A DNA stretch of 64,000 nt. It comes from Anaerolineaceae bacterium UBA700 (GTDB taxonomy: Bacteria > Chloroflexota > Anaerolineae > Anaerolineales > Anaerolineaceae). This document shows, piece after piece, positions 1 to 22,719 of this stretch. The stretch spans positions 19,768 through 83,767 of the forward strand of contig DBMK01000213.1 of NCBI GenBank assembly GCA_002298885.1, given 5' to 3'. Every line of letters begins with the position of its first letter. Position 1 is the stretch's first letter. A program made the translations under genes and the position numbers. The notes below the pieces were generated by a model. It was not told the origin of the DNA. It saw nothing but the letters and a program-made list of their open reading frames with translations, and searched no databases.

Positions 1-3000
1 TCGCCTGGACCCAATAGCCCCAGCCGGGCGTCAGGCTGGACAGGTCGTTGACCCAGCCGGGAGCGTTCTTGTCGTACATCTTCCAGGGGTCGGCTGAATC
101 ACCGGCGTTGTAGGCGAAGATCATGCTGGAGCTGGACGGCGCAGCCGTGACGACGGCCTTAGGCCCTGCCGCGGGGAAGCCCACCAGGTTCCAGCCAGCC
201 CCGCTGGCAGACAGCGGGATGGAGGTGCTGGCTGGGATGGCGCCGGACACCAGCAGGGTAGCCGGGGCGGTCATGTGGATCCAGACGCCCATCTTCTCGT
301 CGATGGCTGGCAACGTATCCGTGGTGATTGGGTTATTGTCGTACATGCGCCAGGACTGGCTGGCGGCATTCCAGGCGAAGACGGTGTCGAAGCTGCCGTT
401 GATACTGGCGAGGACGTCCGCCGGTTTGGTGCTGGCAGGGAGCAGGGGGAAGGAGACCAGGTTCCAGCCGGGCAGCAGGTCGATTGCGAAGGAGTTGAGG
501 TCAACCTGGGTGTGGGTGCCGGAGTGCCAGGGGGCGGTGGCGAGCACTCTTCCGCCGATGGAGAAGGAGACAGTATCGCCCTCGAGGCCGCCCTCCTTGG
601 CGGGGGTGCCGGAGATATCGCCGGGCACATCCAGCATGTAGAAGAGGTCTGAGCCGTCCAGGGCGACTGCGGTGGTGAAAGAGCCGCTGACGCCGGGGAT
701 GGAAGCTTCAATCGTGGTACCTACGGTGGGAGCGCTGCGGTTGAAGTGGAGCAAGCCGAAGAAGCTGGCAGGCAGGGGCGGGGTGCCGCCGGCAGTGACC
801 TGGAGCGAGACGGTAGCGATGTTGCTGTCGAGGGTGCCGTCGTTGGCTTTGTAGGTGAATGAGTCGCTGCCAGAGAAGCCATTGGTGGGGGTGTAGGTGA
901 AGGAGCCGTTGCTGTTGAGGGAAAGGGTACCGTGGGCCGGGTCGGTAACCTTGACAGCGGTCAGGGGATCCCCATCGGCATCGGTATCGTTTGCCAGCAA
1001 GCCCGGAGCAGCGACCACAAGGGCGGTATCCTGGCTGGTGGTGTAACTATCCGCAACTGCCACCGGTGCATTCATATTCGTTGTGTTGGCCACCGCGCTG
1101 TTCCCGGATAGATCAATGGCGCCTGTACCGACCTGCTTCAGTGGCAAGCCGCCGCTGATGACCGGGACGGCAACCGTCCAAGTGTTTGCGGCGCCGGGAA
1201 GCGCAGCCAGGTGCAGGTAGCTGGTGGTTGTTCCATCGCTGTATTTTGCGGCTACGTATGGAGCCGTGCCCCACAGGGTTTCATTCGAGGTGATGCGGAA
1301 ATTACCGCCGCCCGTTGGGGTGATCGTAAGAACCGGGGACGTCGTATCGCTGGTGCCGATGATGGCCTGCATGGCTTCTTTGGAGGTTGAGTAGATGAAT
1401 GGTATGCCTTGATTTGCAGGTGCCGCAGCCGCGGTATGCAAATACGTGTTGGCGGCAGCCACCAGGCCTTTCATATCGTCCCGCTCGTGCATGTACCAGC
1501 ACAGGAGGACCGGCCGGTTATTCTGTGCTGCCTGGGCAAAGGCATCATTCACGCCGGCCTGGCTTGGACCCCCCGGGCAGTTTGCCATCCAATGGTTCAT
1601 ATTTCCGACCTGTTGGTAATTGGTTGAAGATGGATGGTACGGTTCCCAGCCGGTGCCGCCCCAGCCATTGCCGCCTACGTCAGCCAGCATATATTTTTCG
1701 ATCCAGGCCTGCATCTGGTTGTCGTTGTTCAGCCAGCCGGCCCGGAAGTCGGTTGGGAAGAACCTGGCATCCAGCACCATGCGATCCAGGGCATTGTTTT
1801 GCTCATCATACGGGCCGCTGATGGCTTGTTCCTGTCCGCCCATTTGCCAGCTTGAGCCATCCCAGTACATGAAGTGGTGGTGATAGGCAATCTCATCCCC
1901 ATAGCCGCGAACTTCGTTCCCCCAGTTGTTCATCAGCTCGTTGTACAGGGTCAGGTAATTCATCGGCTGGCCATTAGCATAGAAGCCATTGTTGATGAAG
2001 TTGTCCATCTCCATAAACCAGGACATTTCGAACGGATGGCCGCTGCTGTCCGTCGTTAAGCTGCGGAAGGCTGGGTCCATGATTTGAGCGAAGGTGTTGC
2101 TGCTGCCCGATGAACCCTGGTAGACGACGAACTGGTCGGTATCGCTGCCGCTGGATTGGCGGGCGGCATACCACCAGTAGGGAGTCCCCGCCGTCAGGGA
2201 CAGGTTGGTCCCGATCACGAAATAGTCGCCGTTGGCGCCGGCAATCGTGGCAGCTTTGGCCGTGTAGGTAGATAAAGGATAAGCTATATCGGGATTGCCG
2301 CTGACATCCGGCACCACATAGATATTTGTGTCAGGCGGGGCGCCAACCACCGAGAGCTGCAAGCTGACATCATAAGAGCCGCTGGTGGGGACGGTGAATT
2401 GGACCGCCCGGCCGTAGTCGTCGAGCCCGTAGGCATTATTGCTGCCGCAGGTGAAGCTGGTGGTTGGCGTGCCTCCACCGTTTGGAGCAACTGAGAAGTT
2501 GAATACCGTTGACCCGGTTGGATATGCCGTCCAGGTAGCGCCGCCATCCGACGAGTATTTCGTAAGGAAATCCTGACAGGTGGCGCCACCGCTGCGCTGG
2601 TAATTGTGCACGTCGAAGGTGGTGTGCAGCGATCCCATTGGATGGTTGTTATCCGCCTCCGTGTCGATGGCAATGACCACGTAAACCGCCGGATTGCCGA
2701 CCGTCGTGGTGACGGAAGACGTATTATTGGCCTGATTCGTGTCAATGGTGGTAGTTGATACATTAGCAGTGTTCGTGATGCTGCCTTCGGCAGTTGGTTG
2801 GACGATGATTGTGACGGTGGCGCTGGCGCCATTCGCGAGGCTGTTCAGATTGCAAGTAATGGAGCTGGTGCCGCTGCACGTGCCCTGGCTGGCAGCTGCG
2901 GAAACAAAGTTCACACCAGACGGCAGGGTATCGGTGAGCTGCACGCTGTCGGCAGCCAGCGGACCGTTATTCGTTACCATCAAGGTGTAGGTCAGGTCGC

Positions 3001-6000
3001 TCCCTAACCTGATTGAACCGGACGAGGCAGTCTTGGTCAGGGCCAGGTCAGCCATGGGAGTGTTCACCGTGGCGCTGATGGTGGCTGAATTATTGGCCGG
3101 GTTAATATCTGCGGAAGAAGAGATCACCGAAGCGGTATTGACATACGTTGCAGCGAATTGAGGTGCGGCGATGATCGTCACCGTTGCGCTGGCGCCGTTT
3201 GAAAGGTCGCCCAGGCTGCACGAAACGGGGCTGGCCGAAATGCAGGTTCCCTGGGACGGAGTGGCAGAAACGAACGTGAGCCCGGCTGGCAAGTCATCCG
3301 TCACCTGGACGGCGGTGGCGATGGATGGCCCGTGGTTTGTCACCGTGAGGGTATAGGTCAGGTTGCTGCCCAGGTAAGCGGGGATTGGTGCGGCGGTCTT
3401 GGCGATTTCAAGGTCCGCCAGGGCCTGCTGAACGTTATTTGCGACTGCGCTGTTGCCAGCCAGGTCCAATGCGCCGGCGCCCACCTCCTGCAAGGAGCCT
3501 GTCTCAGTCACAGTGGTCGTTGTAGTAGTTTTATACAGGGTGATCTCGTAGATATGGGCGTAATTGTTCGAGTTGGTGCTGCCGGTAACCGTGACCTTGA
3601 CGAACCTGAGATCTATTGGAGTTTCAAACGTATGCGTGGCAAGGCCATGGACCGTATTTGAAGCTACAATTTGTGTCCAGTCCGTGCCATTCTGTGAAGA
3701 CTCGACGTAATAGGTATAGGTGCGCGAGTCGCCGTCCCAGAAGTGGATCGTGAGCTGGGGGACTGTCTTCACGACGCCCAGGTCTACGATGATCCAATTC
3801 GGAGTATTGTTCGTCATTGGGGTTGAATCCCAGTAACTCTCGCCGCTGTCAACACCGTCGATTGCTTTGGAGGCTTCATGTCCGGTCAATTGGCTGGAGG
3901 CAGTTGCACTGACCGGAATATATTTCTCCGGCGGGATCGTGGTGCTATATGTCTGTGTGGCAGGGATCGTTACAACCCAGGCATTTGTGCCAGTAGAGGA
4001 AGCTGATGTATGAATATATTTGAATCCACTTGGCGCCAGGTATCGAGCAGCCATATAAGGAGCGTTGTTCCAGATGGGCTCGTTGGAGTTGATATTGAAT
4101 GTATCCCCACTACCTTTTATCACAGTGAGTGTGGGAGGGGTGGTGTCCGTTGTGCCCATGATTGCTTGCAGCGCTTCCTTTGCGGTGGCGTATTTGAAGG
4201 GAATGCCAGAGCTGGCTGAAGCAGCAGTTGCACTGGATTGGATGCCATTCAAATAATTGAGCAGGTCCTCGCGGTCATGCCCGTACCAGCAGTAAATCAC
4301 GGGTCCGCCGCTATTACTTGCCTGGGTAAAAGCTGAAGTGATATCTCCGCCCTGGCAGTTGACCATCCAATGATTCATGCTGCCTGCCTGGGTGTAATCT
4401 GTGGCGGACGGATGGTAAGGGATCCAGCCGGTTGCCCACCCGGAGCCGCTGTCATCCGATAACATCCATTGGTCTACCCAGGCCTGCAGCTGGTTGCTCT
4501 CATTCAGCCATCCGGAACGGAAATCGGTCGGGAAGAAGCCGGCATCCAGGATCATGCGGTCTAGGGCATTGTTATGCTCGTCATACTGGCCATCCGTGGC
4601 ATGTTGGTGCCCGTCCTGAACCCAAGCGGTCCCATTCCAAACGGTGAAGTGGTGGTGATAGGCCAGCTCATCCCCCCAGGTGGCCAGCTCGGGACTAAAG
4701 TTGTTGACGAAGGTGTTGTACAGGGTGAGATAATTCATCGCAGTGCCATCAGCATAAATGCCATTGTTGATGAAGTTATCCATCTCGACATACCAGGTCA
4801 TCTTGAAAGGCGTGCTGAAGCTGTCTAGATGAGCGTTGCGGAAGTCCGCGGCCATGAGCGGGCCGATATAGGTGCTTTGACCTTTTATGAAATTATGCAC
4901 ATCAAATTGGACATGCTGCGGGGTGGTGGGGTGATTGTTGAAAGCTTCGGTGTCAACCGCGCTCACGATGTACACCACCGGATTGCCAACCGTGGTGGAA
5001 AGGGTTGCCGTGTTGTTTGTTTGAACCGGATCGCTAGAAGCCGTGCTGACGCTGGCAGTGTTAGAGTAGGTGTCTATCGCCTGAGGCGTGACGACGATGG
5101 AAATAGTGGCGCTGGCTCCGTTTGCCAGGTCGCCCAGGTCACAGGTGAGGCTCGGCGCTCCGGAGCACGTCCCCACACTGGGCGTGGCGGAGACGAAATT
5201 GAGCCCGCTGGGAAGGTTGTCGGTTACCTGGACACTGGCAGCGGTGCTTGGTCCGTGGTTGGTTACGGTCAGGTTGTAAGTCAGGTTAACTCCAACCCGC
5301 CCTGAAGAAGGCGTTGAAGTCTGGGTGATTTCGAGATCAGCTATTGAACGGACGACCGAAGTTGCAACAGCCGTGTTGCCCGCCAGGTCCCCGGCTCCGA
5401 CGCTTGCCTGAAGAAGATCGCCAGTCACACTGATAGTTGACTGTAAAGTTTTAAATAGGGAGATTTCAAAGATATGGGCAATAAAACTTGCGGAGCCATT
5501 GGTGACTGTTACTCTGGCATAGCGCAAATCAACCGGCGATGAAAACTCGTGCGTTCCCGTGCCATGGACTGTTGTGGTTTGGACAATTGGCGTCCAATTG
5601 CTACCATCCGTCGAGGCATCGATGTTATAGGTATAGGTGCGCGAGTCCAAGTCATAGAAATGGACCGTCATCATTTTCACAGACTGGGTCGAGCCCAGGT
5701 CAACTGTAATCGATTGTGGTAGTCCATTAGTTACGCCGGAATCCCAATATGTTCCCTCGTTCCCGTCAATCGCCAGAGTAGGCGGATAGGCGGCGTCTGA
5801 ATGGGTGGCTGTAGCGCCAACAACAGGATATTTTTCCGCGGGGATAGTGGTCGTAAAAGTCTTTTGATCTGGGAGTGTGGCAGTCCAGGAGGTTCCGGAT
5901 CCGGTTGCCGAAGTGTGGACATACTTGAGTCCACCTGGAGTCAGGTATCGAGCCGCAACATAAGGGGCATTATTCCACAGGGATTCATTGGAGGTAATAT

Positions 6001-8299
6001 TGAAGGTATCTCCCGTGCCTTTCGCAACCGATAGTATAGGCGGCGTGGTATCCGTCGTTCCCATGAAATCCTGCAAGGCTTGCCTGGTCGTAGCATATAT
6101 AAAGGGCACTCCCGAAGCACTTGAGGCGCTGGTCAGATTGGTTTGTAAGCTGTTGATGTAACTACCCATGTTTTCGCGGTCATGCGAGAACCAGCAGTAG
6201 ATAACCGGCTTGCCGGTCGAGGCAGCCTGGGCAAAGGCCGCACTGATATTGGTGGCGTTCGATCCGCTGCCGTCGCAGCCTGAAATGAAATGTTTAATAT
6301 TATTGGTTGTATCAACCTGTGTATAGTTCGTGGCTAATGGATGGTAAGTGAAATAAACAGGATTGCCGCCAAAAGGCCCGCTGAAATCGGAAAGGAGGTT
6401 CTTTTCGACCCAGGCCTGCACTTCATTGCTATCCCACAGCCAGCCAGAGCGAAAGTCCGCAGGAAAGAAGCCGGTATCCAGGAGCATGTGGTCGAGGGCG
6501 TTATTTTGCTCGTCGTAAGCACCGCTGGTCAGCTGAGTGCCATCCGTCATTTGTACCCAGCTGGTGCCATTCCAGGTCATGAAGTGATGGTGGTAGGCCA
6601 GCTCATCCCCCCATGTGTTGAGCTCCGCGCCATAGTTGGACATGAAGGTTTTGTACAGGGTCAGGTAATCCATCGGCGAGCCGTCAGCATAAATGCCATT
6701 ATTGATAAAGTTATCCATCTCCACGTACCAGGTCATCTTGAAGGGGTTGTTAAAGCTATCCAGATGGCTATTCCGGAAGGCGGGTTCCATGATGGGGCCT
6801 ATGTAGACCGTAGTGCCCTTGATGAAATTTCTCAAGTCGAATTGTGTATGCAGGGTCCCCATCGGGTGATCGTTGTAGGCCTCTGTGTCGACGCCATTCA
6901 CCACGTAGACAACCGGGTTACCAACAACGGTCGTGGCGGTGCTGGTATTATTGGCAGTGTTGGCATCCGTTTCGGTGCATGTAACCGTAGCTGTATTGCT
7001 TAGCATTCCCACCTGGGCGGGGCTAGTTACCTGGATGGTGATCGTGGCGCTTCCGCCGCTGGCGACGCTTCCCAGGCTGCAGGTTACGACGCCGGCGTTG
7101 TTGCTACACGTTCCCAGGGTGCTTGTAGCAGAGATAAAGGTGACCTCAGCGGGCAAGGTATCTATCACGCTCACATTGGTGGCGTTCACATCGCCGTAGT
7201 TGTTGACCGCAAGCTGGTAGGTCAGCGTCTGGCTGACCTTAATCGGATCGGGCGAATCGGTCATCGCGATTGCCATATCGACAGACCCCGTCCCGCCCTG
7301 TCCAAGGGTTACGGTTGGCTCGGGTGAGGCATATTTCCGCACCCGGAAGTCGTCCACGTAATAGGTTGTAGGACCTTCTTGAATGCCTTCTACAGAGATT
7401 CGATTGGCAGAGGTGATTGACCCGCTCAGACTTCCCACCTGCGACCCGTCGATAAAGAAGGTAGGATTTCCATCAGATGTGACCCGGATACCCATTATGT
7501 GCCAGCCCAAAGATCGTGCCAATGAAGTCGCGGTATATCCGTAACCCGAATTATGATAAGCATAATTCGCGGTTGACGTTCCTGTCCACACTCCTAACCC
7601 GATCTGTCCGCCTGGGATTGCATTATTGGCGCGCACCATTTTAAATGCCGGGGCATCTGCCATATCGTCATAAAAATCCCATTCTTGTATGAAATTAGTG
7701 CCAGGCAATGATGATGCCTTCGAAAAAACTGTGGAAGCGCTAGCCCCGGATGGTTGGACAAATTTTCCGCTGTTAGAGCCTCGTTTAGCCCGATCAGTTG
7801 ATTGGGTGAACGTGCCAATACCCGTTCCCTCTTTCGTCCAGGCTGTCCAGGGGGTGCTCTCGAAGTCTTCGAACGAATAAAACGTCGCAGGGCCGTTGGA
7901 AATGCTGGCTGCGCCTGGATTCCCGTAATACATATTAATAAAGACGCTTCCATTGGCCGGAACAGTGGGAACTTTCACCCAGAAAGTTCCACTTGTATTT
8001 GCCGTCCAGCTTTCCATCCAATAAGGAAGTAAGGTGATCCCATCGAGGGCGGTGAAACGAATATCTGAACCGTCGCTCTTTGCTTTGCTAAAGTCGAAAG
8101 AGGAAGCAGTCAGGCTAATTTTGACCTGGTAATCGGATTGTGCTACGCCTGGGTTGTTCGCAATTGTGATCGGCATTTTATATGCCCATCCGGTCAACCA
8201 GGCGGCGTGGACGTTTTTCGGAAAGGAAATTGAAAATGCCAACATTCCTGTGAGAACCACCAGGAAAAACGAGACCCCGCGCAAGAATTTCCTGTTCAT
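1..8299 (-). CDS. Giant secreted modular protein with three deacetylase-like modules (3' end cut by window edge)
   Basis: The frame is open from ATG at 8299 (SD GGAGG) to the window edge, at least 2766 residues, and lacks only a few C-terminal residues judged from its paralogue at 8422. Order seen: signal peptide; DUF2341-like domain (about 27-130); LamG-like region (130-330); then three rounds of DUF11 repeat(s) plus a polysaccharide-deacetylase-like module. Each module starts with a VDTEA-type motif and has a later GDE(L/I)AYHHHF motif (about 458-740, 1100-1380, 1867-2316). Discoidin-like F5/8C domains follow modules one and two. A cadherin-like domain (2408-2500), the shared PASFFG domain (2507-2602) and the GWNLVSF module end it. 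It is the last visible gene of the surface operon. Inferred role: surface-attached binding or processing of a polysaccharide; activity is unproven. Only the ends and several internal points were checked for frame, but no stop interrupts it. Confidence 0.85.
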   Translation of the reverse strand, partial: MNRKFLRGVSFFLVVLTGMLAFSISFPKNVHAAWLTGWAYKMPITIANNPGVAQSDYQVKISLTASSFDFSKAKSDGSDIRFTALDGITLLPYWMESWTANTSGTFWVKVPTVPANGSVFINMYYGNPGAASISNGPATFYSFEDFESTPWTAWTKEGTGIGTFTQSTDRAKRGSNSGKFVQPSGASASTVFSKASSLPGTNFIQEWDFYDDMADAPAFKMVRANNAIPGGQIGLGVWTGTSTANYAYHNSGYGYTATSLARSLGWHIMGIRVTSDGNPTFFIDGSQVGSLSGSITSANRISVEGIQEGPTTYYVDDFRVRKYASPEPTVTLGQGGTGSVDMAIAMTDSPDPIKVSQTLTYQLAVNNYGDVNATNVSVIDTLPAEVTFISATSTLGTCSNNAGVVTCSLGSVASGGSATITIQVTSPAQVGMLSNTATVTCTETDANTANNTSTATTVVGNPVVYVVNGVDTEAYNDHPMGTLHTQFDLRNFIKGTTVYIGPIMEPAFRNSHLDSFNNPFKMTWYVEMDNFINNGIYADGSPMDYLTLYKTFMSNYGAELNTWGDELAYHHHFMTWNGTSWVQMTDGTQLTSGAYDEQNNALDHMLLDTGFFPADFRSGWLWDSNEVQAWVEKNLLSDFSGPFGGNPVYFTYHPLATNYTQVDTTNNIKHFISGCDGSGSNATNISAAFAQAASTGKPVIYCWFSHDRENMGSYINSLQTNLTSASSASGVPFIYATTRQALQDFMGTTDTTPPILSVAKGTGDTFNITSNESLWNNAPYVAARYLTPGGLKYVHTSATGSGTSWTATLPDQKTFTTTIPAEKYPVVGATATHSDAAYPPTLAIDGNEGTYWDSGVTNGLPQSITVDLGSTQSVKMMTVHFYDLDSRTYTYNIDASTDGSNWTPIVQTTTVHGTGTHEFSSPVDLRYARVTVTNGSASFIAHIFEISLFKTLQSTISVTGDLLQASVGAGDLAGNTAVATSVVRSIADLEITQTSTPSSGRVGVNLTYNLTVTNHGPSTAASVQVTDNLPSGLNFVSATPSVGTCSGAPSLTCDLGDLANGASATISIVVTPQAIDTYSNTASVSTASSDPVQTNNTATLSTTVGNPVVYIVSAVDTEAFNNHPTTPQHVQFDVHNFIKGQSTYIGPLMAADFRNAHLDSFSTPFKMTWYVEMDNFINNGIYADGTAMNYLTLYNTFVNNFSPELATWGDELAYHHHFTVWNGTAWVQDGHQHATDGQYDEHNNALDRMILDAGFFPTDFRSGWLNESNQLQAWVDQWMLSDDSGSGWATGWIPYHPSATDYTQAGSMNHWMVNCQGGDITSAFTQASNSGGPVIYCWYGHDREDLLNYLNGIQSSATAASASSGIPFKYATAKEALQAIMGTTDTTPPTLTVIKGSGDTFNINSNEPIWNNAPYMAARYLAPSGFKYIHTSASSTGTNAWVVTIPATQTYSTTIPPEKYIPVSATASSQLTGHEASKAIDGVDSGESYWDSTPMTNNTPNWIIVDLGVVKTVPQLTIHFWDGDSRTYTYYVESSQNGTDWTQIVASNTVHGLATHTFETPIDLRFVKVTVTGSTNSNNYAHIYEITLYKTTTTTTVTETGSLQEVGAGALDLAGNSAVANNVQQALADLEIAKTAAPIPAYLGSNLTYTLTVTNHGPSIATAVQVTDDLPAGLTFVSATPSQGTCISASPVSCSLGDLSNGASATVTIIAAPQFAATYVNTASVISSSADINPANNSATISATVNTPMADLALTKTASSGSIRLGSDLTYTLMVTNNGPLAADSVQLTDTLPSGVNFVSAAASQGTCSGTSSITCNLNSLANGASATVTIIVQPTAEGSITNTANVSTTTIDTNQANNTSSVTTTVGNPAVYVVIAIDTEADNNHPMGSLHTTFDVHNYQRSGGATCQDFLTKYSSDGGATWTAYPTGSTVFNFSVAPNGGGTPTTSFTCGSNNAYGLDDYGRAVQFTVPTSGSYDVSLQLSVVGAPPDTNIYVVPDVSGNPDIAYPLSTYTAKAATIAGANGDYFVIGTNLSLTAGTPYWWYAARQSSGSDTDQFVVYQGSSGSSNTFAQIMDPAFRSLTTDSSGHPFEMSWFMEMDNFINNGFYANGQPMNYLTLYNELMNNWGNEVRGYGDEIAYHHHFMYWDGSSWQMGGQEQAISGPYDEQNNALDRMVLDARFFPTDFRAGWLNNDNQMQAWIEKYMLADVGGNGWGGTGWEPYHPSSTNYQQVGNMNHWMANCPGGPSQAGVNDAFAQAAQNNRPVLLCWYMHERDDMKGLVAAANTYLHTAAAAPANQGIPFIYSTSKEAMQAIIGTSDTTSPVLTITPTGGGNFRITSNETLWGTAPYVAAKYSDGTTTSYLHLAALPGAANTWTVAVPVISGGLPLKQVGTGAIDLSGNSAVANTTNMNAPVAVADSYTTSQDTALVVAAPGLLANDTDADGDPLTAVKVTDPAHGTLSLNSNGSFTYTPTNGFSGSDSFTYKANDGTLDSNIATVSLQVTAGGTPPLPASFFGLLHFNRSAPTVGTTIEASIPGVSGSFTTAVALDGSDLFYMLDVPGDISGTPAKEGGLEGDTVSFSIGGRVLATAPWHSGTHTQVDLNSFAIDLLPGWNLVSFPLLPASTKPADVLASINGSFDTVFAWNAASQSWRMYDNNPITTDTLPAIDEKMGVWIHMTAPATLLVSGAIPASTSIPLSASGAGWNLVGFPAAGPKAVVTAAPSSSSMIFAYNAGDSADPWKMYDKNAPGWVNDLSSLTPGWGYWVQA

Positions 8300-14400: not shown

Positions 14401-17376
14401 ACCCTTGTAATAGCGCAGCCCGAGGATTTTCCCGCTGTTAGCTGACTGGAATTTCACACCCACTTCAATCGGCTGGCTGTCAGTGGCGGCCGGGTTGTCA
14501 GGCGTAACGCTGCTGTTCCATAAGCTGTACTCCCGCGCAACGACAGTATCAAAGACGACATCGACCAAATAATTCCTGCCTTGATAGCCCTGGGAGGGAA
14601 ATGTACCACTTGGGCCATAATTGTACAGGCCGTTCGGGCCGTCGAAGCCATCCGCCAGGGCATGAACGGGCGCGTTGTCGACCCCGCTGCTCAAATCCCC
14701 AAGCGAGTAGGTGTAGTATGAGTCTGAATGGTAGGAAGCAATGTAAGTGGTATTGGCAGTCAACGGGATGGGTGTCGAGAAGATGACTTCCTGCCAGCCT
14801 GAGGCGCTTTCTGCAACAAATGTGCCTTCGGCCAGCATAACCCCGCTGCTGGTCCACAGGTGACCGATGTGGATACCGTCGTTGAGCGCATCTTTGTAAA
14901 AGCGCAGGCCGGTGATGTAGCCATTAACATCGGTGCGGAATTTGACCCCGACCTCCAACGCGCGATTATCGGACAACGTCACGCCGGTAGGAACCTGATT
15001 CGAATCCCAGATGCTGCACGGGCAGGTACGCAGGGAATTGACGTCAAAGAGGTTGCTTGCGCCGCTGGAAGATCCATCGGCAGCTGTGATCGAGAAGCCG
15101 GTTCCCTGGCTGGATAGGGTGACCGTTCCGGTCCAGGCGCCGCTGACAAAGCTGCCGGTGGCGGCGGGCTGGATGCTGTTTCCGCTTACGCTCAGGTTCG
15201 CCGTCCCGGTGTAAGTGACAACCGGGTTACCGGTTGCATCGCGAGCACGGATTGTGATATTGAACGGAGCATCTTTATAACGCGGCGAAGAGATTGCATC
15301 AATTGAAAAATGGTCGAGCACAGTTAGCGAAATGTTAACGGAGGCGAATCCTGACAGACTGCCAAAAGAGGCGCGCACGGTGTTCGAGAATGCACCGCTT
15401 GTAGCACCGGCGGTGAACAAGCCATTTATATCAATTGATCCGCCGCCGTTTGCCACACTCCAGGTGAAGGGAATGCCGGGGATAGCGGCGTTGCTTGCGT
15501 CGTAGCCTGTTGCCATGAACTGCTGCGTGACTCCAGCTATCACATTAGCCGGGTCAGGCGTTACGGTGATGTGGTGCAATGGACCGGGTAAGGTGTAGCT
15601 GACCACAGGGTCCGAGCCATCTAGAACCGGCACGTCGAGAGGGGATTGCAGGATAACACCCTCCTGGTCGGTAAAAACGTAGATCTTAGTGGTTATATCC
15701 GTCGTGCCGCTGAAATTGGCCATTATCTGCCGGGCGCCCGCATCGTAGGTGCCACCGGTTAGATTCGAATTGTGGATGGCCCTCAGGTACTGGCAGGCGT
15801 AATCCATCGAGACATACCTGGGATTGTAGGAAGCTATATTACGGGTGATCGCTTGCAGCGATGCGTTCCAGTCAGCCCTGGGCATGATGCCCTGGAAAGT
15901 ATATTCGTGGCTAAAAAGGGTTGCCAGGGAAAGGCTGTCCAGGGCGCGTTTCAGCCAGGCGGTGCCGTCCTCTGCGGACTGCGTGACACTGGTCCGGTCG
16001 TTTGCCAGCCATTCGTAGCCGGTAACATCGCGGATTTCCGAAATGCAGTTGAAGAATTTATTGTCCAATTCAGCATGACCGGGGATGGTCATGTAGTCGG
16101 CGTAATAAGGGTTTTGAGTCCGGTCGTAAGCCGTTCCAGATTGGTATTTGCGGTAGGGCCCGGCTGCCATCCAGGGGGTAGCAGGCGTGCCGGATTCCAG
16201 AAAGCCGGGGTCCATCATGGTGCCGATAAATTCCGTTCCCCAGGCTTGCAAGCCGGCAAAGGTATTGCTGCCGATCTCGTAATAATGCGGAACCAGGTAT
16301 TTTGAGATGGGGATATGATTGGCGTTGAACCATGTGGTCGCAGCCCCATAGTTCGCCTGCATGGTTGAATCGTCAAAATTAGCGCCAGCGTCATGGTTGA
16401 AGTAAAAGAAATCGGAGGTGCTGAAGGCGTGCACGGCGGCGGTGGCTTTGCCGGCGCTCACCAGGCCTGACAGGTCGGCTGCCTCGGCAGAGTCGATATC
16501 ATCGGTAAAGATTCCGGCCCAGGGGATAAAGCCGAAGCTGTTGGCGTCGTGGATCCACCAAAAAGGACCGGAGACATCATCCATGCGCATGGTGACGAAG
16601 GGCGGCAGGGACTGCAGGGCGAAAGGCTTGTGCGCCGCCCATACGATGCTGCGCCAGACCAGGTCATCCAGGCCAAACAGGGGTCCTTTGACAGCAACAG
16701 ACATCCAATCGTAGGTGCCCCACTGGACGGCCCGGCCCGAACCGTAGTTTTTTACCGCCAGAAAAGGCTGCGAACCGGTCATAGCAAGTGCAGAAACGCT
16801 GCCGTCCCCGGGCAAGGTGATGCCTGCCAGGGTCATATCCCCGGTGTTGATGGTTTCGCCTGGCGCATGGCGTTCAGTGATGTAGTGCGTTTGGGGTGCA
16901 AAAGACACCCCGGAAAGGGCGGCTTGAGTCGTATAGCCAAATCCGAAGATGCTGTTAACGAATGCGTAGGCGGGCGCGCTGCCATCCGTCGATAGGTAAT
17001 TATCAAAGTTGACCAGGCCGGTTCCGGCGCTCACGGCCGCGGTGATGCTGGCCTGCTCGCTGCCGTCGAGATAGTTTCCATTAGGGTCGAGCCGGCGGTG
17101 GCCGATGATGATTTCGGCATAATCGGCAATGTTGGCTGGGACGGTCGAGACAGCGATATCCACGACGGTGTGGGGTACGCCAAAATTATCGAGATAGGGC
17201 TGGATATATTTCTGAAAATCGTTAAAACCTTCGCTGCTTGAGTTAACCAGGACCATTGCATCGATGCGTGCAGTCCCTGCGGCCTTCACAACCCTGGGCG
17301 GGGTAAACGGCGCGGCCAGGTTGGAAACGACGAGGGTGATGAAAACAAATGCTGTGAGCAAAGATTTACGATTCAA
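8422..17376 (-). CDS. Giant secreted modular protein (2984 aa) with two Rossmann plus deacetylase-like units
   Basis: The start is TTG at 17376 with AGGAG 8 bases upstream; the stop is TGA at 8422. After a signal peptide, residues 30-250 form a glutamine-amidotransferase-like Rossmann region and 255-545 a NodB-like region (MRMDDVSG). Two Ig-like domains follow, then two DUF4082 domains (about 782-940, 952-1100), a Big_5 domain, a second Rossmann region (1230-1438) and a second deacetylase-like region with TGDSEG and PHYDD motifs (1484-1715). Next come another Big_5, two LamG-like regions, an FN3-like domain, a cadherin-like domain (2612-2702), the PASFFG domain (2705-2805) and the GWNLVSF module (2810-2984) ending SVDYP. 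Its last 550 residues closely match the end of the neighbouring giant. The Rossmann-deacetylase pairing recalls exopolysaccharide-processing enzymes, but this is inference only. The gene lies 47 bp after the small anchored protein, so co-transcription is likely. Confidence 0.9.
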   Translation of the reverse strand: MNRKSLLTAFVFITLVVSNLAAPFTPPRVVKAAGTARIDAMVLVNSSSEGFNDFQKYIQPYLDNFGVPHTVVDIAVSTVPANIADYAEIIIGHRRLDPNGNYLDGSEQASITAAVSAGTGLVNFDNYLSTDGSAPAYAFVNSIFGFGYTTQAALSGVSFAPQTHYITERHAPGETINTGDMTLAGITLPGDGSVSALAMTGSQPFLAVKNYGSGRAVQWGTYDWMSVAVKGPLFGLDDLVWRSIVWAAHKPFALQSLPPFVTMRMDDVSGPFWWIHDANSFGFIPWAGIFTDDIDSAEAADLSGLVSAGKATAAVHAFSTSDFFYFNHDAGANFDDSTMQANYGAATTWFNANHIPISKYLVPHYYEIGSNTFAGLQAWGTEFIGTMMDPGFLESGTPATPWMAAGPYRKYQSGTAYDRTQNPYYADYMTIPGHAELDNKFFNCISEIRDVTGYEWLANDRTSVTQSAEDGTAWLKRALDSLSLATLFSHEYTFQGIMPRADWNASLQAITRNIASYNPRYVSMDYACQYLRAIHNSNLTGGTYDAGARQIMANFSGTTDITTKIYVFTDQEGVILQSPLDVPVLDGSDPVVSYTLPGPLHHITVTPDPANVIAGVTQQFMATGYDASNAAIPGIPFTWSVANGGGSIDINGLFTAGATSGAFSNTVRASFGSLSGFASVNISLTVLDHFSIDAISSPRYKDAPFNITIRARDATGNPVVTYTGTANLSVSGNSIQPAATGSFVSGAWTGTVTLSSQGTGFSITAADGSSSGASNLFDVNSLRTCPCSIWDSNQVPTGVTLSDNRALEVGVKFRTDVNGYITGLRFYKDALNDGIHIGHLWTSSGVMLAEGTFVAESASGWQEVIFSTPIPLTANTTYIASYHSDSYYTYSLGDLSSGVDNAPVHALADGFDGPNGLYNYGPSGTFPSQGYQGRNYLVDVVFDTVVAREYSLWNSSVTPDNPAATDSQPIEVGVKFQSANSGKILGLRYYKGAGVTGVHTGHLWTSTGTLLASVDFTNETAQGWQEARLSQPVDITENTTYIASYFSPVGFFAYTAAGLLSTISSPPLRTLVNGESGPNGVYNYGSSAFPTQGNGANYWADVIFARAFVPDSTAPVVNSVYPLNQSSGVSVTSNLTATFSEPMNPVSINASTFELRDTGGQLVPAVVSYIASSLTATLDPQNTLAYSNTYTAKIKGGTGGVSDVAGNPVAQDFTWTFTTTSAPPPPLDEGPGGPILIISDSAYASNPFGRYYTEILRAEGFNSFLATDISNITASALTSYKVVLLAEMSLSPAQISMLDTWVQGGGKLIAFRPAKALAAQYGLTDAGTIISEGYLAVNTSTSIGQGIVSNTIQFHGAADTYTLSGASSLATLYTDATTTTASPAIASFYRGSGQVVIFAFDLARSIIYMRQGNPAWAGQEGDGIDGIRAIDMFVGRAGQPNWIDTNKMSIPQADEEMHVLSHAIEQMLASAQPLPRLWYFPNQTKGTLIMTGDSEGCSGTCVNALMADVNAHGGYYTAYLLSNAPSPAEVNAWRDNGNGLAPHYDDTSEASNPTISGMTAVYDSMTQSFINAYGFAPRTVRNHWILWTGWADQAAIEAAHGIQMDTNYYHNGSWLGNDPGYFTGSGLPMRFTGVTGNIIDLYQANTQLPDETWGNNIFSAFKTLIDASIDQGYYGFLTANFHPPNYSTYQAFADNMMDYAASRGIPIWSAEMLLDFSLARNQAQVKNLQWDGNLLSFTFSAPRPDSRLTLMLPVRAGGHDLQTIIAGGNQITFTKQTMKGYEYALFTAIDGAYQATYAADTIPPVVSSHSPASNATGIALNANVTVTFSEEMDPATIIGSTFRLRTDGASSDVPAAVSYDSTSLTATLNPDADLAFNKLYYVTVSGTVSDASGNPLGVDQTWSFTTQGLTDTTVADFSAGSGTCAIDANLGDGALRLGAVLDESFSGTSLPIGWSRIPASGGALTVSDGLLSINGVMARDETLFQPGQTLEFAATFQAEPYQHIGFGANATTFENGPWILFSTGQSGTQLYARIVTSPIGPYNTGDDAISLGSQYLGSQHVYRIAWNAGSIELSIDGILKVTRPSNISDPMRVAASDFVINGNSLQVDWIRMASYTSPCNFTSRLFDTGEAANWDLLDWNANLPTGASLSLQYRLGNTADLGGAQWIPVTGNSPKTLAGNSQYIQYQVVLGTTNPYQTPVLQDVTFNYHAGADTTAPTISGLSAAPGGNGYEVISWNTDEPSDSLVQYGTNASSLFSSASSPALVVAHSITLSNLPTGTKYYFRVTSKDAANNGTAFPLAGEPPASFKTPAVIHTLTDTNLADFSAGSSSCTIDPGIGDGAVRLPLMIDENFYGTTLPADWTQPPWPGGGQATVSEGSLNVNGGIAGTTAAFSVGSTLEFIATFSNDPYQHVGFVNNLNFDSPWAIFSTNASSSFLYARVNGASMTDIQLPGSYLNAPHVYRIEWNATGFKFYIDGALVETIYTAITTPMIFAASDYVNNSNGISVDSVSLTPYISPCTLTSRVLDAAGTAVFSSIGWIGTTPAGTDLSLSVRTGTTITPDGTWTAFTPVTNGASLPDGWRYLQYQAQLSATDGSQTPVLADITIQYQIDLPPVAIDDIYTTTTDVLLTVASPGVLANDIDTDSDLLTAVKVTDPAHGTLSLNSNGSFTYTPTNGFSGSDSFTYKANDGTLGSNIATVSLQITAGGTPPLPASFFGLLHFNKDAPGVGTTIEATIPGVSGSFNTSVALDGSDLFYMLDVPGDISGTPAKEGGVEGDTVSFSIGGRILASASWHSGTHSQVDLNSFALDLLPGWNLVSFPLHPASTNPADVLSSIISRVDTVFAWNPDAVYPDSQWLMFAPGQGFGNTLSTLDEKMGFWVHVTPGATVTLSVSGSIPTSTSIPLSANGGGWNLVGFPAAGPKTVAAAAPSSTSMIFAYDAGDLADPWKMYDKNAPSWVNDLSSLAPGWGFWVQATTTGTWSVDYP

Positions 17377-17423: not shown

Positions 17424-17987
17424 CTAGGCGTGCTTTTTCCGCAGCAGCCAGGCGGCGCCGCCGAGCACTGCGGCAGCCGCACCAATGCCCGTTACCAGCC
17501 AGGCACTGCCAGAATCTCCGGCGGGGGTTTCAGGCGCCTTCCCGGATGGAATTGCCGTTTGGGTTGGGACGGCGGTGGGGACAGGCGGCGGAGTCGCCAG
17601 CGGGCCGGACGCGCTGGCGGAAAGGTCCAGGCTGACGTTGGTGCCGGAGTGCCATACCCCAATTTGATCGGCGATCACGCCGCCTACCTCGAAGTGGATT
17701 GTGTCGCCTTCCTTGCCGCCTTCGATGGAGCTGGTATCCGATTCATCCCCAACTACGTTCAAGCTGAAGACCGAATTGCCGTCGTACAGCATGGCGCGGG
17801 CAGTAGCGTATTCCCGCCCGCCAATCAGGGCACGCACGAGCGTGCCTTCCGGCACGTTTTGCCCGTTAATCTTGACCTGCCCGTAAAAGCTGGAAGGCAG
17901 GTTCGGAACGGCCAGGACGGGTGTGATCGCCAGCCCGCAGGCCATAATTGCCATAAAAATTGAGAAAAGAAGCGGTCTGTATTTCAC
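17424..17987 (-). CDS. Small membrane-anchored single PSSFYG-domain protein
   Basis: This 187-residue protein starts at GTG 17987, with AAAGGA 8 bases upstream. It has an N-terminal signal peptide (cleavage probably after VLA, about residue 26), then one copy of the shared domain: LPSSFYG near residue 31, VVGDESDTSSIEGG in the middle and WHSG at the end. A Pro/Thr-rich stalk follows, then a hydrophobic C-terminal helix and the basic tail RKKHA. This layout fits a protein secreted by Sec and held in the membrane by its C-terminus, with the domain displayed outside. It sits between two large secreted genes carrying the same domain. A structural or docking role is inferred. The domain looks like a beta-sandwich, but I cannot name a Pfam family for it. 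Confidence 0.85.
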   Translation of the reverse strand: MKYRPLLFSIFMAIMACGLAITPVLAVPNLPSSFYGQVKINGQNVPEGTLVRALIGGREYATARAMLYDGNSVFSLNVVGDESDTSSIEGGKEGDTIHFEVGGVIADQIGVWHSGTNVSLDLSASASGPLATPPPVPTAVPTQTAIPSGKAPETPAGDSGSAWLVTGIGAAAAVLGGAAWLLRKKHA

Positions 17988-18082: not shown

Positions 18083-19738
18083 TCAAGGGTAGGTCACTAC
18101 CCAGGAGGCGGCAGCGTTGGTATACATCCAGTAGCCCCAACCGGGCGTCAGGCTGGAAAGCGAATTAATGAACGACGGAGCGTTGCGATCAAAATTTTTC
18201 CACGGAATTGCATCGCCGTTGTGGTAGGCGAACACCTGGTTGACCGGAGCCGGGACTGCGCCAGGCAGAGCTTTGGCTGATGCAGCCGGGAACCCCACCA
18301 GGTTCCAGCCGCCAGCCGTGGTGTACAGGTTGATGGTGGTGCTGGTTGGAGCGGTGCCGGTCAAGGACAGCGTTACTGGGGCACCGGCGGTGATGTGAAT
18401 CCAGAAGCCGTTGCGCTCATCCAACGCTGACAGGGTATTCACGAAATCCGGAACGTAAGGCGAATAAATCAGCCAGTTCTTCTGGCTGACAGCGGCATTC
18501 CAGACGTACACCTGGTCGTAGCTGCCGAAGACGCTCGACAGCACCTGGGAGATGGCAGTGGTGGAGGGGTGCAGGTTGAATGAGACCAGGTTCCAGCCGG
18601 GATTAAGCACAATTTCGAAGAAGTTGAAGTCGAGCTGGGTGATCTCACCAGAATGCCAGGGGGCGCTGGCCACCGCCTTGCCGCCCATCCAGAATGTAAC
18701 CAGCTCTCCTTCAACGGCCCCTTCGCGGCCAGGTGTGCTGAGAACGTCACCGGGAACGATCATGGAGTAGGCCAGATTAACGCCATCTTGCACAACTACC
18801 GTATCTGCAATGGGCTGGCCCAAGCTGGGGATCCTGGCTTCGATCGGGGTGCCCAGGGCGGGCGGGGTGGGGAAGAAATGGATGCGGCCCCAGAAGGTGT
18901 GCGGCACCGGTGGCGGCTCCGTGGCGGAGGTGAAATCCAGCCGGGTGTGGGTGCCGGTGTGCCATTCGGCAGTGCCCAGGTCCGTACCGGCGATGCTGAA
19001 GGTGACCAGCTGGCCTTCCGCTGCGCCTTCGATTTCAGGCGTGCTGGTATTGTCGCCCGGCACATCCAGGGCGTACACCAGGGTTGCGCCATCCAGCGCG
19101 ATAGCGATGGATGCGATCGGGCTGGTCACGCCCGAAATCCTGGCCTCGATCAGTGCCCCGGGTTGGGGCGGGTTGGGGCTGATGTGGATCTCGCCGTAGA
19201 AGCTGGCCGGCAGCGGCGGCGGAGCCGCGGGCGTGGTCAGGTCGAACTGGGTATGGCTGCCAGTATGCCAGGGAGCAGCCCCCCCGCTGACCCCGCCGAT
19301 GCTGAATGTAACCAACTCGCCTTCGACGGCGCCCTCAATTTCTGGCGTGCCAGAAATGTCGCCCGGCACGTCCAGGGCGTACACCAGGGTGGCGCCGTCC
19401 AAAACGACGGTGGTGGTGGCAATCGGGCCGGTTACGCCAGCGACCCTGGCTTCAATGGACGCGCCGGGCTGTGGGCCTGGATCCATGTGAATTTCGCCGT
19501 AAAAGCTGGCGGGCATGGGTGGGGGACTGCTATCCGCCAGGCTGTGGGCAGCGGCGGCGGGGGCAGGCAGCGAAAAGCCAGCCAGGAGCACGCTCGCCAG
19601 GACCAGCAGGCGCAGCAGGCCGCGCCCAACCCGCGAAAAGCTGGCTCTCTGTTTAGTACGGGCGCAAAGGTTCATTTTCACCCCCATGACAATCTCTGGT
19701 ATGAATTCATGATGGTTCACTCGCTTTTTGCGGCTCAT
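18083..19738 (-). CDS. Secreted protein with three tandem PASFYG domains and GWNLVSF C-terminal module
   Basis: The 551-residue frame starts with ATG at 19738, overlapping the previous stop by ATGA. A start at 19675 (MNLCARTK, preceded by GGGGGTG) would give a more normal signal peptide, so either start is possible. After the signal, three copies of the shared domain follow at about 75-165, 172-265 and 272-368, each with P-x-x-F-(Y/W)-G, VPGD-x-x-STP-x-x-EGA and WH(T/S)G. Residues 375-551 are the double GWNLVSF/GWNLVGF module ending WVVTYP. No enzyme domain is present, so it is probably a structural or adaptor component of the same surface system. The third copy is the most divergent (PHTFWG). 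Confidence 0.88.
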   Translation of the reverse strand: MSRKKRVNHHEFIPEIVMGVKMNLCARTKQRASFSRVGRGLLRLLVLASVLLAGFSLPAPAAAAHSLADSSPPPMPASFYGEIHMDPGPQPGASIEARVAGVTGPIATTTVVLDGATLVYALDVPGDISGTPEIEGAVEGELVTFSIGGVSGGAAPWHTGSHTQFDLTTPAAPPPLPASFYGEIHISPNPPQPGALIEARISGVTSPIASIAIALDGATLVYALDVPGDNTSTPEIEGAAEGQLVTFSIAGTDLGTAEWHTGTHTRLDFTSATEPPPVPHTFWGRIHFFPTPPALGTPIEARIPSLGQPIADTVVVQDGVNLAYSMIVPGDVLSTPGREGAVEGELVTFWMGGKAVASAPWHSGEITQLDFNFFEIVLNPGWNLVSFNLHPSTTAISQVLSSVFGSYDQVYVWNAAVSQKNWLIYSPYVPDFVNTLSALDERNGFWIHITAGAPVTLSLTGTAPTSTTINLYTTAGGWNLVGFPAASAKALPGAVPAPVNQVFAYHNGDAIPWKNFDRNAPSFINSLSSLTPGWGYWMYTNAAASWVVTYP

Positions 19739-20622
19739 TCTTTACGGCGCGGCAGCAGCCAGACGGCGCCGCCCAGGATCACGATCACCACAATCGCCCC
19801 GACCAGCAGGATCGAGTCGGTTGAACCGGTCGTAGCGGCGCTTGCGGCGGGTGCAGCGGTGGGAGCGCCCTGATCTGTGCTTTCAGCTGCCTGGGTTGGG
19901 CCGGTAGGCTGGGAACTGCCCGCAGGATACGCCTGCGGGGCGGCCTGGATCGGCTGGACCTGGCTGGCGGTGGCGGTCAGGGATGCCGGTGTGGACAGGG
20001 CGCTGCCAGCCGGCGCGGTTGGGCTCAACTCCATGCTGACGGATGTTGCAGTGGCAGCGGGCAAGGGGGAGCTGGAAGGCGCCGGCTGAGTGCTGGTGGC
20101 GGTGGCGGGCTGGCCTGGTTGGGCCGTGTAGGAGGGTCGCGTACTAGGTTGCATTGTTGGCTGAGACGTGGGCTGGGCCGTTGGCTGCACCGTGGGCTGG
20201 GTGGTTGGGGTTGCTGAGGGCAGCGGGGTGGGCAGGGGGTTGGCGGATGACGCCGTGAGATCAAGGGAGTTGCTGGTGCCGGAATGCCACACCCCGGTTT
20301 GGTCGGCGCGCACGCCGCCGATCTCGAAGGTGATGACATCGTCCTCTTTGCCGCCCTCGATGGCGGGCGTGCTGGTGTCGTCGCCCGGTACGATCAGGCT
20401 ATAAACCGAGCCGCCCTCATACATCAGGGTGGTGCCCGTCGCGTAAGCCGTGCCGTTGATCAAAGCCCGCACGGCGGTGCCGGCTGGCACCAGTTGGGTG
20501 TTAACCCGCACCTGCCCGTAAAAGCTGGCGGGCAGGGGCGGGAAGGCCAGGGCCGGCGTGATGAGCATGGCGCCGGCCAGGCAGGCTACAAAGAAAGAGG
20601 AGAAAAGGCGTTTTAATTGCAA
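19735..20622 (-). CDS. Membrane-anchored single PASFYG-domain protein with long Pro/Thr/Gln stalk
   Basis: This 295-residue protein starts at TTG 20622, with AAAGGA 8 bases upstream. It has a signal peptide (TPALA near residue 26), one shared domain at about 30-125 (PASFYG, VPGDDTSTPAIEGG, WHSGTS), a low-complexity stalk of about 140 residues rich in Pro, Thr, Ser, Gln and Ala, and a C-terminal hydrophobic helix with basic tail PRRKE. It is a longer-stalked version of the 17424-17987 protein. The stalk would place the domain further from the membrane. Its stop overlaps the next start by four bases, suggesting translational coupling. Confidence 0.87.
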   Translation of the reverse strand: MQLKRLFSSFFVACLAGAMLITPALAFPPLPASFYGQVRVNTQLVPAGTAVRALINGTAYATGTTLMYEGGSVYSLIVPGDDTSTPAIEGGKEDDVITFEIGGVRADQTGVWHSGTSNSLDLTASSANPLPTPLPSATPTTQPTVQPTAQPTSQPTMQPSTRPSYTAQPGQPATATSTQPAPSSSPLPAATATSVSMELSPTAPAGSALSTPASLTATASQVQPIQAAPQAYPAGSSQPTGPTQAAESTDQGAPTAAPAASAATTGSTDSILLVGAIVVIVILGGAVWLLPRRKE

Positions 20623-20655
20623 GCGATAATCCTTTTGGTAAACAGGTTGCGGTTG

Positions 20656-20690
20656 CGCCAGGGAGAACCCGGGGAGGGCTCTCCCTGGCG
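20656..20690 (-). promoter_or_regulatory. Intercistronic hairpin in the surface operon
   Basis: A perfect 10-bp stem (cgccagggag / ctccctggcg) with a 15-base loop lies in the 91-bp gap between the stop at 20714 and the TTG at 20622. The T-run is on the wrong side for minus-strand termination. It resembles the hairpin at 18020-18067 in place and size. Confidence 0.5.
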
Positions 20691-20713
20691 TTTTTGGTGG
20701 TCAAACAGCAGGC

Positions 20714-22603
20714 TTACGGATAAGTTACCGTCCAGCTGCCGCCATCCACCGCGGTGTACACCCAGTAGCCCCAGCCTGGATCGAGGGATGTCAGGTCGTA
20801 GGACCAGGAGGGTGCGCCGGCGTCGTACAGTTTCCAGGGATCGGATACGTCGCTGGCATGGTAGGCGAAGGCCAGGTTAATGCCCGACCCGGCGAAAACA
20901 CCCGGCATCACTTTATTGTCCCTGGCAGGATAGCCAACCAGGTTCCAGTTGCCGGCGTGGTTGTGGAGGGCAATGGTGGTGGTGGTTGGTTGATTGCCAA
21001 CCACGTCCAGGATTGCCGGAGCAGTCATGTGGATCCAAAAGCCAGTTTGGTCCGTCAGATCCGTAAGTGAATTTCCGAAAGGAACTCCGCGAGTGAATCC
21101 CAGCCAGTTACCAACGCCAGAGTGACCACCTGTAGCATCCCAGGCGAAGACCTGGTCGAAATTAGTAGATAAGCCAGCTAACACGTCTTCAATCTTCGTA
21201 TCCACAAGACCCGTTGCAGGGTTCGTCGGGATCAGGTTGAACGAAACCAGGTTCCAGCCGGTGACCAGCGGGATGCTGTGCTTGGCATAAATGACCAGCG
21301 TGTCGCTGGCTGAGCCGGAGTAGTTGGGGTCGGTAATGGTGGCGACGACTGCATAGCTGCCAGGGTCGGTCGGAGCGGTTGGCGAGCCGCCGTAGGTGAT
21401 GCTTACCGACAGACCATCCGGAACGGTGGTGACGGTAGCAGATTTAGGCGTGCCGTCGAAGACGTAAGAGAGGTTGCTCAGGGTTACGGTGGCGGCGGCC
21501 TGGGTGATGGTGATGGTGGCTGAACCAGTACTGCCGTAGTGGTTGTCATCACCTGCGAAGGTATAGCTGGCAGAGCAGGGGGTATCGGCCACATTCACCG
21601 GAGCGGTAGAGCAAGAATAAACCGGTGCTGGTGTCAGGCTCAGTCCGCCCGCACCAGTCACAGCGACGGTGGCTGGATGCGGCAGGCCATCGTACTCAAA
21701 CATTCCGCCGCCGGAAACGAGGGTTGAAGAAGTTGCCTTGTCGATCACCAGCGTATCAGAAACCGAACCGGAGTAGTTGGGGTCGGTGATGGTGGCGACG
21801 ACCGCATAGCTGCCAGCAGCAGTCGGAGCGGTGGTTGAACCAGCATAAGTAACGCTCACGGTCAAGCCAGCTGGAACGGTGGTAACAGTGGCAGCCTTAG
21901 GGGCACCGTCATAAGTTTGGTTCAAATCATCGAGAGTCACGGTCGCAGTGGCTTTTCCCACTGTTACTTCAACCGTTGCAGTTCCCACTCCCCCTTGACC
22001 ATCGGTCACCTGCAAACCAACAATGTGTGTTCCAACGGATGTCCAGGTGTTGCTGACGGATTTGCCAGCGGTTTCGTAAGTGCCATTATGATCTAAATCC
22101 CACATGAACCCGGTGCTGTCACTGACATCGTTTCCCAAGTCATTGGCAGATGCGGTCAGAGTGACAGGGACCCCATACGTTCCAGTGTACGGTCCGCCAG
22201 GGAGGGCCTGCGGCGGGTGGAGATTCTTGCTGATGTTCGTGCCGCTAGACCAGGTTGCATTGGTCAGGACTACCCGCCCGTTGATCTTGAAGGTGAGCGG
22301 TTTGCCCGCATCCGTAGCAATGACGCCGGGCACATTGATGACGTATCCAAGGGGGGGAGTCTCCCCGGTGGCTACGATTTTTGTAGACGCAGATATGCCA
22401 GCGCCTTCGACAACCAGGGTAGTGTCAACTGCAGGCTCGCCGTCCCCGGTGACAAATTGGACGTAGCCATAAAAGTTGGATGGCAGGTCCGGGGCGTCTG
22501 CGCGGACATTGACGGCCCCCGCAAGCGATGTAATCGCCACCATAGCCAGGATGGCCAGGGTCAATCCAATCCGATAGTAATTTTTGGTTCGTGTACTGTT
22601 CAT
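20714..22603 (-). CDS. Secreted protein: PSNFYG domain, PKD, three MBG-like repeats, GWNLVSF module
   Basis: This first full-length gene of the surface operon encodes 629 residues, starting at ATG 22603 with AAGGAG upstream. Order: signal peptide ending near VRA (35); a divergent copy of the shared domain (LPSNFYG, INVPGV, WSSGTN; about 38-130); a PKD domain with FMWDLDHNG (133-215); three MBG-type repeats with the Y/F-DG and (D/S)PNYSGS pattern (217-290, 290-370, 370-442); and the GWNLVSF/GWNLVGY module to the end (443-629, WTVTYP). PKD and MBG domains are extracellular adhesive or spacer folds. No catalytic motif is visible. Its start is overlapped by the stop of a 39-codon leader ORF, so translation of the operon may be coupled to that leader. 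Confidence 0.88.
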   Translation of the reverse strand: MNSTRTKNYYRIGLTLAILAMVAITSLAGAVNVRADAPDLPSNFYGYVQFVTGDGEPAVDTTLVVEGAGISASTKIVATGETPPLGYVINVPGVIATDAGKPLTFKINGRVVLTNATWSSGTNISKNLHPPQALPGGPYTGTYGVPVTLTASANDLGNDVSDSTGFMWDLDHNGTYETAGKSVSNTWTSVGTHIVGLQVTDGQGGVGTATVEVTVGKATATVTLDDLNQTYDGAPKAATVTTVPAGLTVSVTYAGSTTAPTAAGSYAVVATITDPNYSGSVSDTLVIDKATSSTLVSGGGMFEYDGLPHPATVAVTGAGGLSLTPAPVYSCSTAPVNVADTPCSASYTFAGDDNHYGSTGSATITITQAAATVTLSNLSYVFDGTPKSATVTTVPDGLSVSITYGGSPTAPTDPGSYAVVATITDPNYSGSASDTLVIYAKHSIPLVTGWNLVSFNLIPTNPATGLVDTKIEDVLAGLSTNFDQVFAWDATGGHSGVGNWLGFTRGVPFGNSLTDLTDQTGFWIHMTAPAILDVVGNQPTTTTIALHNHAGNWNLVGYPARDNKVMPGVFAGSGINLAFAYHASDVSDPWKLYDAGAPSWSYDLTSLDPGWGYWVYTAVDGGSWTVTYP

Positions 22604-22719
22604 GAGAGTTCTCCTTGGATGAATGGAAAGATTTCGCCTGGAAAAGCGTCCGAATGCTGCATATAGGCGATCGAGCCAGGCAGTTGGCTTACTTGCGGCA
22701 AGGTCCTAATTTTGTCCAT
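22600..22719 (-). CDS. Short leader ORF (39 aa) coupled to the surface operon
   Basis: On the minus strand a strong SD (GGGGAGG) precedes ATG at 22719. The frame MDKIRTLPQVSQLPG... runs 39 codons to TGA at 22600-22602, sharing ATGA with the start of the 20714-22603 gene. There is no signal peptide and no recognised motif. The better ribosome site is here, so it may be a coupling leader peptide or a real microprotein. Coding status rests only on the SD and the overlap. Confidence 0.45.
   Translation of the reverse strand: MDKIRTLPQVSQLPGSIAYMQHSDAFPGEIFPFIQGELS

Follow-up and report, generated by a model that had tools for sequence, protein, structure and literature searches.

Two unnamed domains of a Chloroflexota locus may form a cell-surface display system

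Introduction

How the cells of Chloroflexota retain very large secreted proteins is, to our knowledge, not settled. The question is raised by one end of a 64,000-nucleotide stretch of Anaerolineaceae DNA (the window), where two giant proteins that look secreted are encoded beside smaller proteins with which they share a domain. The envelope to which such proteins would be attached is itself under discussion: according to PMC13319060, Chloroflexota have no genes for the BAM complex or lipopolysaccharide and are regarded as monoderm, and recent tomograms are described there in which two Chloroflexota species look diderm.

Results

Six adjacent genes on one strand

Six minus-strand open reading frames (ORFs) lie between position 22603 and the left edge of the window. 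By eye, their proteins start with signal-like segments, and by sequence they appear secreted or membrane-anchored, as the initial annotation had proposed, two of them being small putative anchors. The genes, and two that lie just upstream, are as follows.

2-8299, minus strand: P0001, giant protein, predicted to be secreted; runs past the window edge (database entry P0144, 2778 aa)
8422-17376, minus strand: P0002, giant protein, predicted to be secreted, 2984 aa
17424-17987, minus strand: P0003, small putative anchor
18083-19738, minus strand: P0004, three VPGD copies and GWN
19735-20622, minus strand: P0005, small putative anchor
20714-22603, minus strand: P0006, N-terminal VPGD, PKD, MBG repeats and C-terminal GWN
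22600-22719, minus strand: 39-aa ORF without a Pfam family, apparently preceded by a strong ribosome-binding site; its stop codon overlaps the start of P0006
22834-23172, minus strand: PilZ-domain protein (PF07238, E 3.3e-10), just upstream of the six genes

By annotated coordinates, the intergenic gaps from the sixth gene to 2-8299 measure 91, ~47, 95, 47 and 122 bases. The genes for P0005 and P0004 are ~47 bases apart or overlap by 4 bases, according to which P0004 start is used. No ribosome-binding site was seen at 19738 and the protein in the database (P0007) has 17 residues fewer; the true start may lie at 19687. Ribosome-binding sites were seen by eye upstream of five of the six annotated starts. 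A terminator scan found no minus-strand terminator-like site within the gaps of the six genes; the single site in the gaps was on the plus strand (20669-20688), and three minus-strand sites fell inside the coding region of 8422-17376. A promoter scan was uninformative (11 found versus 8.5 in shuffles). From this layout, a single transcript for all six genes is plausible.

The initial annotation had extended the segment to 22719, which overshoots the start of the sixth gene (22603) but coincides with the start of the 39-aa ORF, a possible leader peptide. The PilZ gene is possibly the first gene of the operon; a terminator-like hairpin (23458-23415) separates it from a preceding LuxR-type response regulator gene. 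Its position invites the guess that c-di-GMP controls the locus. Further along, two overlapping minus-strand ORFs (27892-28293 and 26816-27895) appear to be parts of one protein (26816-28293) that looks secreted and weakly matches a beta-helix family, perhaps split by a frameshift.

A recurrent domain in all six proteins

All six proteins contain a domain, here called VPGD, which is present in eight copies: P0004 has three and the other five proteins have a single copy each. Their class assignments are taken from the tree described below.

491-778, minus strand: VPGD in P0001, cargo class
8965-9252, minus strand: VPGD in P0002, cargo class
17616-17903, minus strand: VPGD in P0003, anchor class
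19232-19519, minus strand: VPGD copy 1 in P0004, cargo class
18926-19216, minus strand: VPGD copy 2 in P0004, cargo class
18620-18910, minus strand: VPGD copy 3 in P0004, cargo class
20251-20538, minus strand: VPGD in P0005, represented in the tree by the identical P0044
22214-22489, minus strand: VPGD in P0006, divergent, cargo class

Leave-one-protein-out HMMs recovered every copy (130.2, 126.3, 90.0, 91.5/93.0/67.5, 105.0 and 23.1 bits). Even the weakest, that of P0006 at 23.1 bits, stood clear of the control of 1200 shuffled proteins per model, which reached at most 8.4 bits. The recurrence is far beyond chance, and the six minus-strand genes with eight copies described in the initial annotation are therefore borne out, each ORF being present and each copy found again. 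The consensus written there stood only in part: P-x-S-F-(Y/F)-G matches six of the eight copies and WH(S/T)G seven, but the full middle part, VPGD-x-x-(S/T)TP-x-x-EGG-x-EG(D/E), matches none exactly (a looser VPGD...EG(G/A) matches six). The divergent P0006 copy lacks EGG and has WSSG, and the P0003 copy has VVGD.

The same annotation could assign the domain to no named family, and neither could we: in Pfam and the other profile libraries searched, no model at or above cutoff covers VPGD, and profile scans of 83 and 73 anchor-type members gave scattered weak matches only. PDB sequence searches with VPGD or with the VPGD-GWN cassette returned nothing credible, and a literature search, outside which most subscription journals lay, listed no paper recognisable as being on either domain. 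VPGD appears to adopt a widespread type of beta-sandwich fold. From transthyretin-like and carboxypeptidase-regulatory-like beta-sandwiches (the usher C-terminal domain, the SusC N-terminal extension and CnaB) it differs by a conserved acidic loop. No transthyretin- or CarboxypepD_reg-like Pfam match fell on VPGD in the six window proteins, nor was there one among the 25 of 28 families listed for the 83 anchor-type members; in P0128 and P0046, such matches fall outside VPGD. As for the isopeptide pair of CnaB, neither Lys nor Asn occurs among the 26 positions with 90% or more (up to complete) conservation across the 83 anchor-type sequences, and the commonest Lys (P0003 position 39) is His in the cargo class.

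A C-terminal domain on the larger proteins

Four of the six proteins have a second domain in common, here called GWN, which is C-terminal and comprises ~175 residues.

5-484, minus strand: GWN of P0001, truncated at the edge of the window
8428-8955, minus strand: GWN of P0002, resembling P0143 in its first half and P0001 in its second
18089-18613, minus strand: GWN of P0004
20720-21274, minus strand: GWN of P0006

GWN is an internal duplication whose halves align with each other (hhalign probability 99.5, E 3e-23), and no model of the profile libraries searched covers it at or above cutoff. Structure prediction models it well as a folded, mostly beta domain; matches in a structure search with the VPGD+GWN model were dominated by the VPGD part. 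In 90 of the 99 GWN matches listed, at most 10 residues separate the domain from the C terminus; in one of the remaining nine (P0024) the distance is 11 residues, and in the other eight GWN lies further inside. As a conserved C-terminal module on diverse secreted proteins, GWN resembles the T9SS CTD, PEP-CTERM/exosortase, sortase LPXTG and MYXO-CTERM signals, but it differs from them in being a long duplication with a predicted fold of its own. No T9SS or CTERM family reached cutoff on the six window proteins, nor did any sorting motif score above cutoff, the nearest values being 19.6 bits for P0003 against GVDTG_CTERM (cutoff 29) and 15.8 bits for P0005 against LPXTG_anchor (cutoff 15.9).

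A database protein with a T9SS tail domain (P0043) has two GWN-half matches followed later by a VPGD-like stretch (hhalign probability 88% over 59 columns, in a single-sequence comparison). Judging from this protein, the pairing of VPGD with GWN may also occur in other lineages.

Giant proteins and exchange of their cassettes

P0001 contains DUF2341, F5/8 type C, four DUF11 and Big_9 domains, then VPGD and GWN at the C terminus; it also holds three repeats of ~250-300 aa without an assigned family. P0002 has DUF4082, Big_5, a GH16-like stretch and Big_9, again followed by VPGD and GWN. PDB sequence searches with the P0001 repeats or the P0002 N terminus returned nothing credible. A reading of the P0001 repeats and of P0002 as NodB-like deacetylases was drawn from motifs; profile and PDB searches lent it no support, and we do not propose it. 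A third giant, P0143 (1993 aa), comes from a contig of 83,767 bases, the size of the window's own contig, which very likely carries it outside the window. It combines DUF2341, a Polysacc_deac_1 domain above cutoff and a VPGD-GWN cassette. The giants may have a role in handling polysaccharide.

The cassettes have histories of their own. P0143 and its relative P0145 are 68% identical in their bodies and 58% in their cassettes. Compared with the window's giants, P0143 has a cassette with 82% identity to P0002 and 67% to P0001, and a body for which no similarity to either was found. Within the P0002 cassette, identity to P0143 is 95% in VPGD, 92% in the first GWN half and 60% in the second, the latter being 80% like P0001. 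Because the P0002 cassette is a mosaic and the body and cassette identities of P0143 are discordant, we conclude that cassettes recombine between genes. Such exchange fits a shared binding partner; neutral gene conversion is also possible.

Relatives in the databases

Each of our searches scored ~8000 candidates within a length range, and the resulting counts, which include the window's own proteins (P0007, P0044, P0045, P0142 and P0144), are neither complete nor unbiased. The P0004 search gave at least 37 proteins (31 with VPGD, 37 with GWN), one of them labelled Anaerolineales. At least 98 were found with the two anchors (98 of 98 with VPGD, none with GWN). The P0002 C-terminal cassette, a query that held both domains, returned at least 58 giants, all with GWN and 27 with VPGD. 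All four complete P0004 relatives (P0008-P0011) keep three VPGD copies, and in many listed relatives VPGD is N-terminal or internal. As 31 of the 58 listed GWN giants have no VPGD detectable at the threshold used, VPGD is not a universal tag, which favours GWN as the general one.

Searches of other collections gave little. The sole match of a P0004 contig scan, L001 (Armatimonadota), is fitted by neither domain model and is taken to be a false positive; G001 with query A1 and 151 Armatimonadota genomes with query A5 gave no match, in runs without a positive control. No match was found in plasmids searched with P0003 or in phages searched with the VPGD protein of L003, and no relative in viral contigs searched with the VPGD+GWN alignment (the patterns fell in GWN). 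L003 and another IMG/VR contig, L002 (109,319 and 21,272 bases, respectively), encode a secreted-looking VPGD protein of 160 aa that has the sequence VFLPLIMNN close to its end (9941-10423 in L003, 4750-5232 in L002). Its gene adjoins phage-type genes for RNA ligase/tail fibre attachment, a Mom-like protein and methyltransferases.

Two classes of VPGD

The putative anchors have an architecture of their own. P0003 consists of a signal-like segment, VPGD, a PTQTAI linker, a C-terminal hydrophobic helix and an RKKHA tail, in that order; P0005 has a long PT-rich linker without the PTQT motif, a C-terminal hydrophobic helix and an RRKE tail. Among the 98 anchor-search proteins listed, 79 have a hydrophobic helix within their last 60 residues; a YLPxx-like tail is found in 12, and the remaining 7 show neither feature. 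A (P/S/A/T)TQT linker, mostly PTQTAI or PTQTPI, is found in 65 of these 98, and TQT occurs within 40 residues of VPGD in one of 64 other VPGD proteins. The PTQT(A/P)I-type motif (P0003 residues 140-145) is preserved in anchor linkers that otherwise vary. Two other secreted-looking proteins of the window, both on the plus strand, end in FVPRVMH (55538-58915, clostripain-like with LRR) and VRLPVLKK (61292-63976, GH123-like); these ends resemble the YLPxx tails and could represent a C-terminal sorting motif.

A VPGD tree was built from 166 distinct copies, identical sequences having been merged beforehand (P0044 standing for P0005); four database entries that duplicate window proteins were omitted, as were two short fragments (P0012 and P0042). 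The best single split of this tree separates the two architectures with 2 of 166 copies misplaced, compared with 56 or more in each of 200 shuffles of the labels, and its local support is moderate (0.744). The misplaced copies belong to a GWN protein (P0033, anchor side) and a short protein (P0131, cargo side). Of the window's copies, that of P0003 groups with the anchors and those of P0001, P0002, P0004 and P0006 group with the cargo; every anchor-search copy except P0131, and so P0044 (= P0005) as well, is on the anchor side, which is search-biased since anchors were retrieved by VPGD similarity under a length limit that excludes large proteins. Query bias is less of a concern on the cargo side: of 37 VPGD copies in proteins that were matched mainly via GWN (query coverage at most 38% in the P0004 search and 74% in the cassette search), 36 fall in the cargo clade. 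The classes differ at class-specific residues, and both keep the P, F and G of the FYG motif, the G of VPGD, the G of EGD, an F and W-x-x-G-T.

Apparent linkage of anchors and GWN proteins elsewhere

The gene neighbourhood appears to recur. When contigs were equated by identical size in bases, with the window's own excluded, 8 sizes were common to 94 anchor contigs and 88 GWN-protein contigs among the matches listed, against a chance mean of 0.55 (offsets of 1-100 bases). Of the 15 anchor contigs longer than 10 kb, 4 were size-matched versus 0.05 expected; the other eleven had no partner among the matches listed. The GWN protein has a cargo-class VPGD in seven of the eight shared sizes, in which both classes are therefore present; none was found in the eighth (3,965 bases, P0041). 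Relatives of P0004, P0003 and P0005 occur together at 13,851 bases, and the smallest shared sizes (2,059 and 3,172 bases) are the most open to chance. Equal contig sizes suggest that GWN proteins are encoded close to anchors on other contigs too, the kind of clustering that the initial annotation had named as support.

Discussion

The two domains and their architectures, the two VPGD classes, the C-terminal position of GWN and the exchange of cassettes are features of the sequences themselves. From them we infer a surface location and a contact between anchor and cassette, and we favour, tentatively, a cell-surface display system in which membrane anchors carry VPGD and giants are held via the VPGD-GWN cassette. 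P0003 and P0005 would be inserted into the membrane by their C-terminal helix, displaying anchor-class VPGD on an external Pro/Thr-rich stalk. The C-terminal cassette of cargo-class VPGD and GWN would keep the large secreted proteins at the surface through non-covalent contact with the anchors, with another envelope component, or with both, and the three-copy P0004 would connect several parts. Against this stand the giants that have GWN and no detectable VPGD (31 of 58), the misplacement of P0033 and P0131, the short proteins with a YLPxx-like tail or with neither tail nor helix (12 and 7 of 98), and the absence of PTQT from P0005. A more specific version, in which the two paralogous classes pair non-covalently, stalked anchors capturing cargo cassettes that recombination swaps and the copy on a phage-like contig acting as a decoy, we consider unlikely.

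The giants without VPGD weigh most for another explanation, in which GWN alone is a C-terminal sorting or attachment tag read by other machinery or a wall polymer and VPGD is a spacer or ligand-binding domain with no docking role. All 58 listed giants have GWN and 27 have VPGD, GWN is C-terminal in 90 of 99 whereas VPGD is often N-terminal or internal, and the beta-sandwich that VPGD appears to adopt is a widespread one. This reading, which we regard as somewhat doubtful, leaves unexplained why anchors have a VPGD class of their own, lack GWN and appear adjacent to GWN proteins, and why three copies are retained in every complete P0004 relative. Duplication and cassette exchange, both visible here, could also be all there is, with independent secreted proteins sharing duplicated domains and the small ones being unrelated membrane proteins; the apparent anchor-GWN linkage on eight further contigs makes this quite improbable. 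The initial annotation envisaged instead that the copies self-associate or dock in a surface assembly; in a homotypic form of this idea, all VPGD copies would bind one another and build up a lattice or fibre at the surface. The presence of eight copies in a single locus, a three-copy protein and residues conserved across both classes speak for such an assembly, but the shared residues may merely maintain the fold and two classes with class-specific residues suit heterotypic contact better; of the explanations considered, we hold this one the least probable. Having missed both GWN and the two-class split, that interpretation was too narrow.

Returning to the display system that we favour, its likeness to cohesin-dockerin cellulosomes would be one of outline only: an anchor, a multi-copy protein and large cargo with a C-terminal module. 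A Pfam scan (E up to 0.1) found neither dockerin nor cohesin in the six proteins, and no catalytic family is established for the window's two giants. What the locus supplies is two unnamed domain families, a candidate pairing between them and a list of cargo. At least 193 proteins, most without a telling name, could be described by VPGD and GWN.
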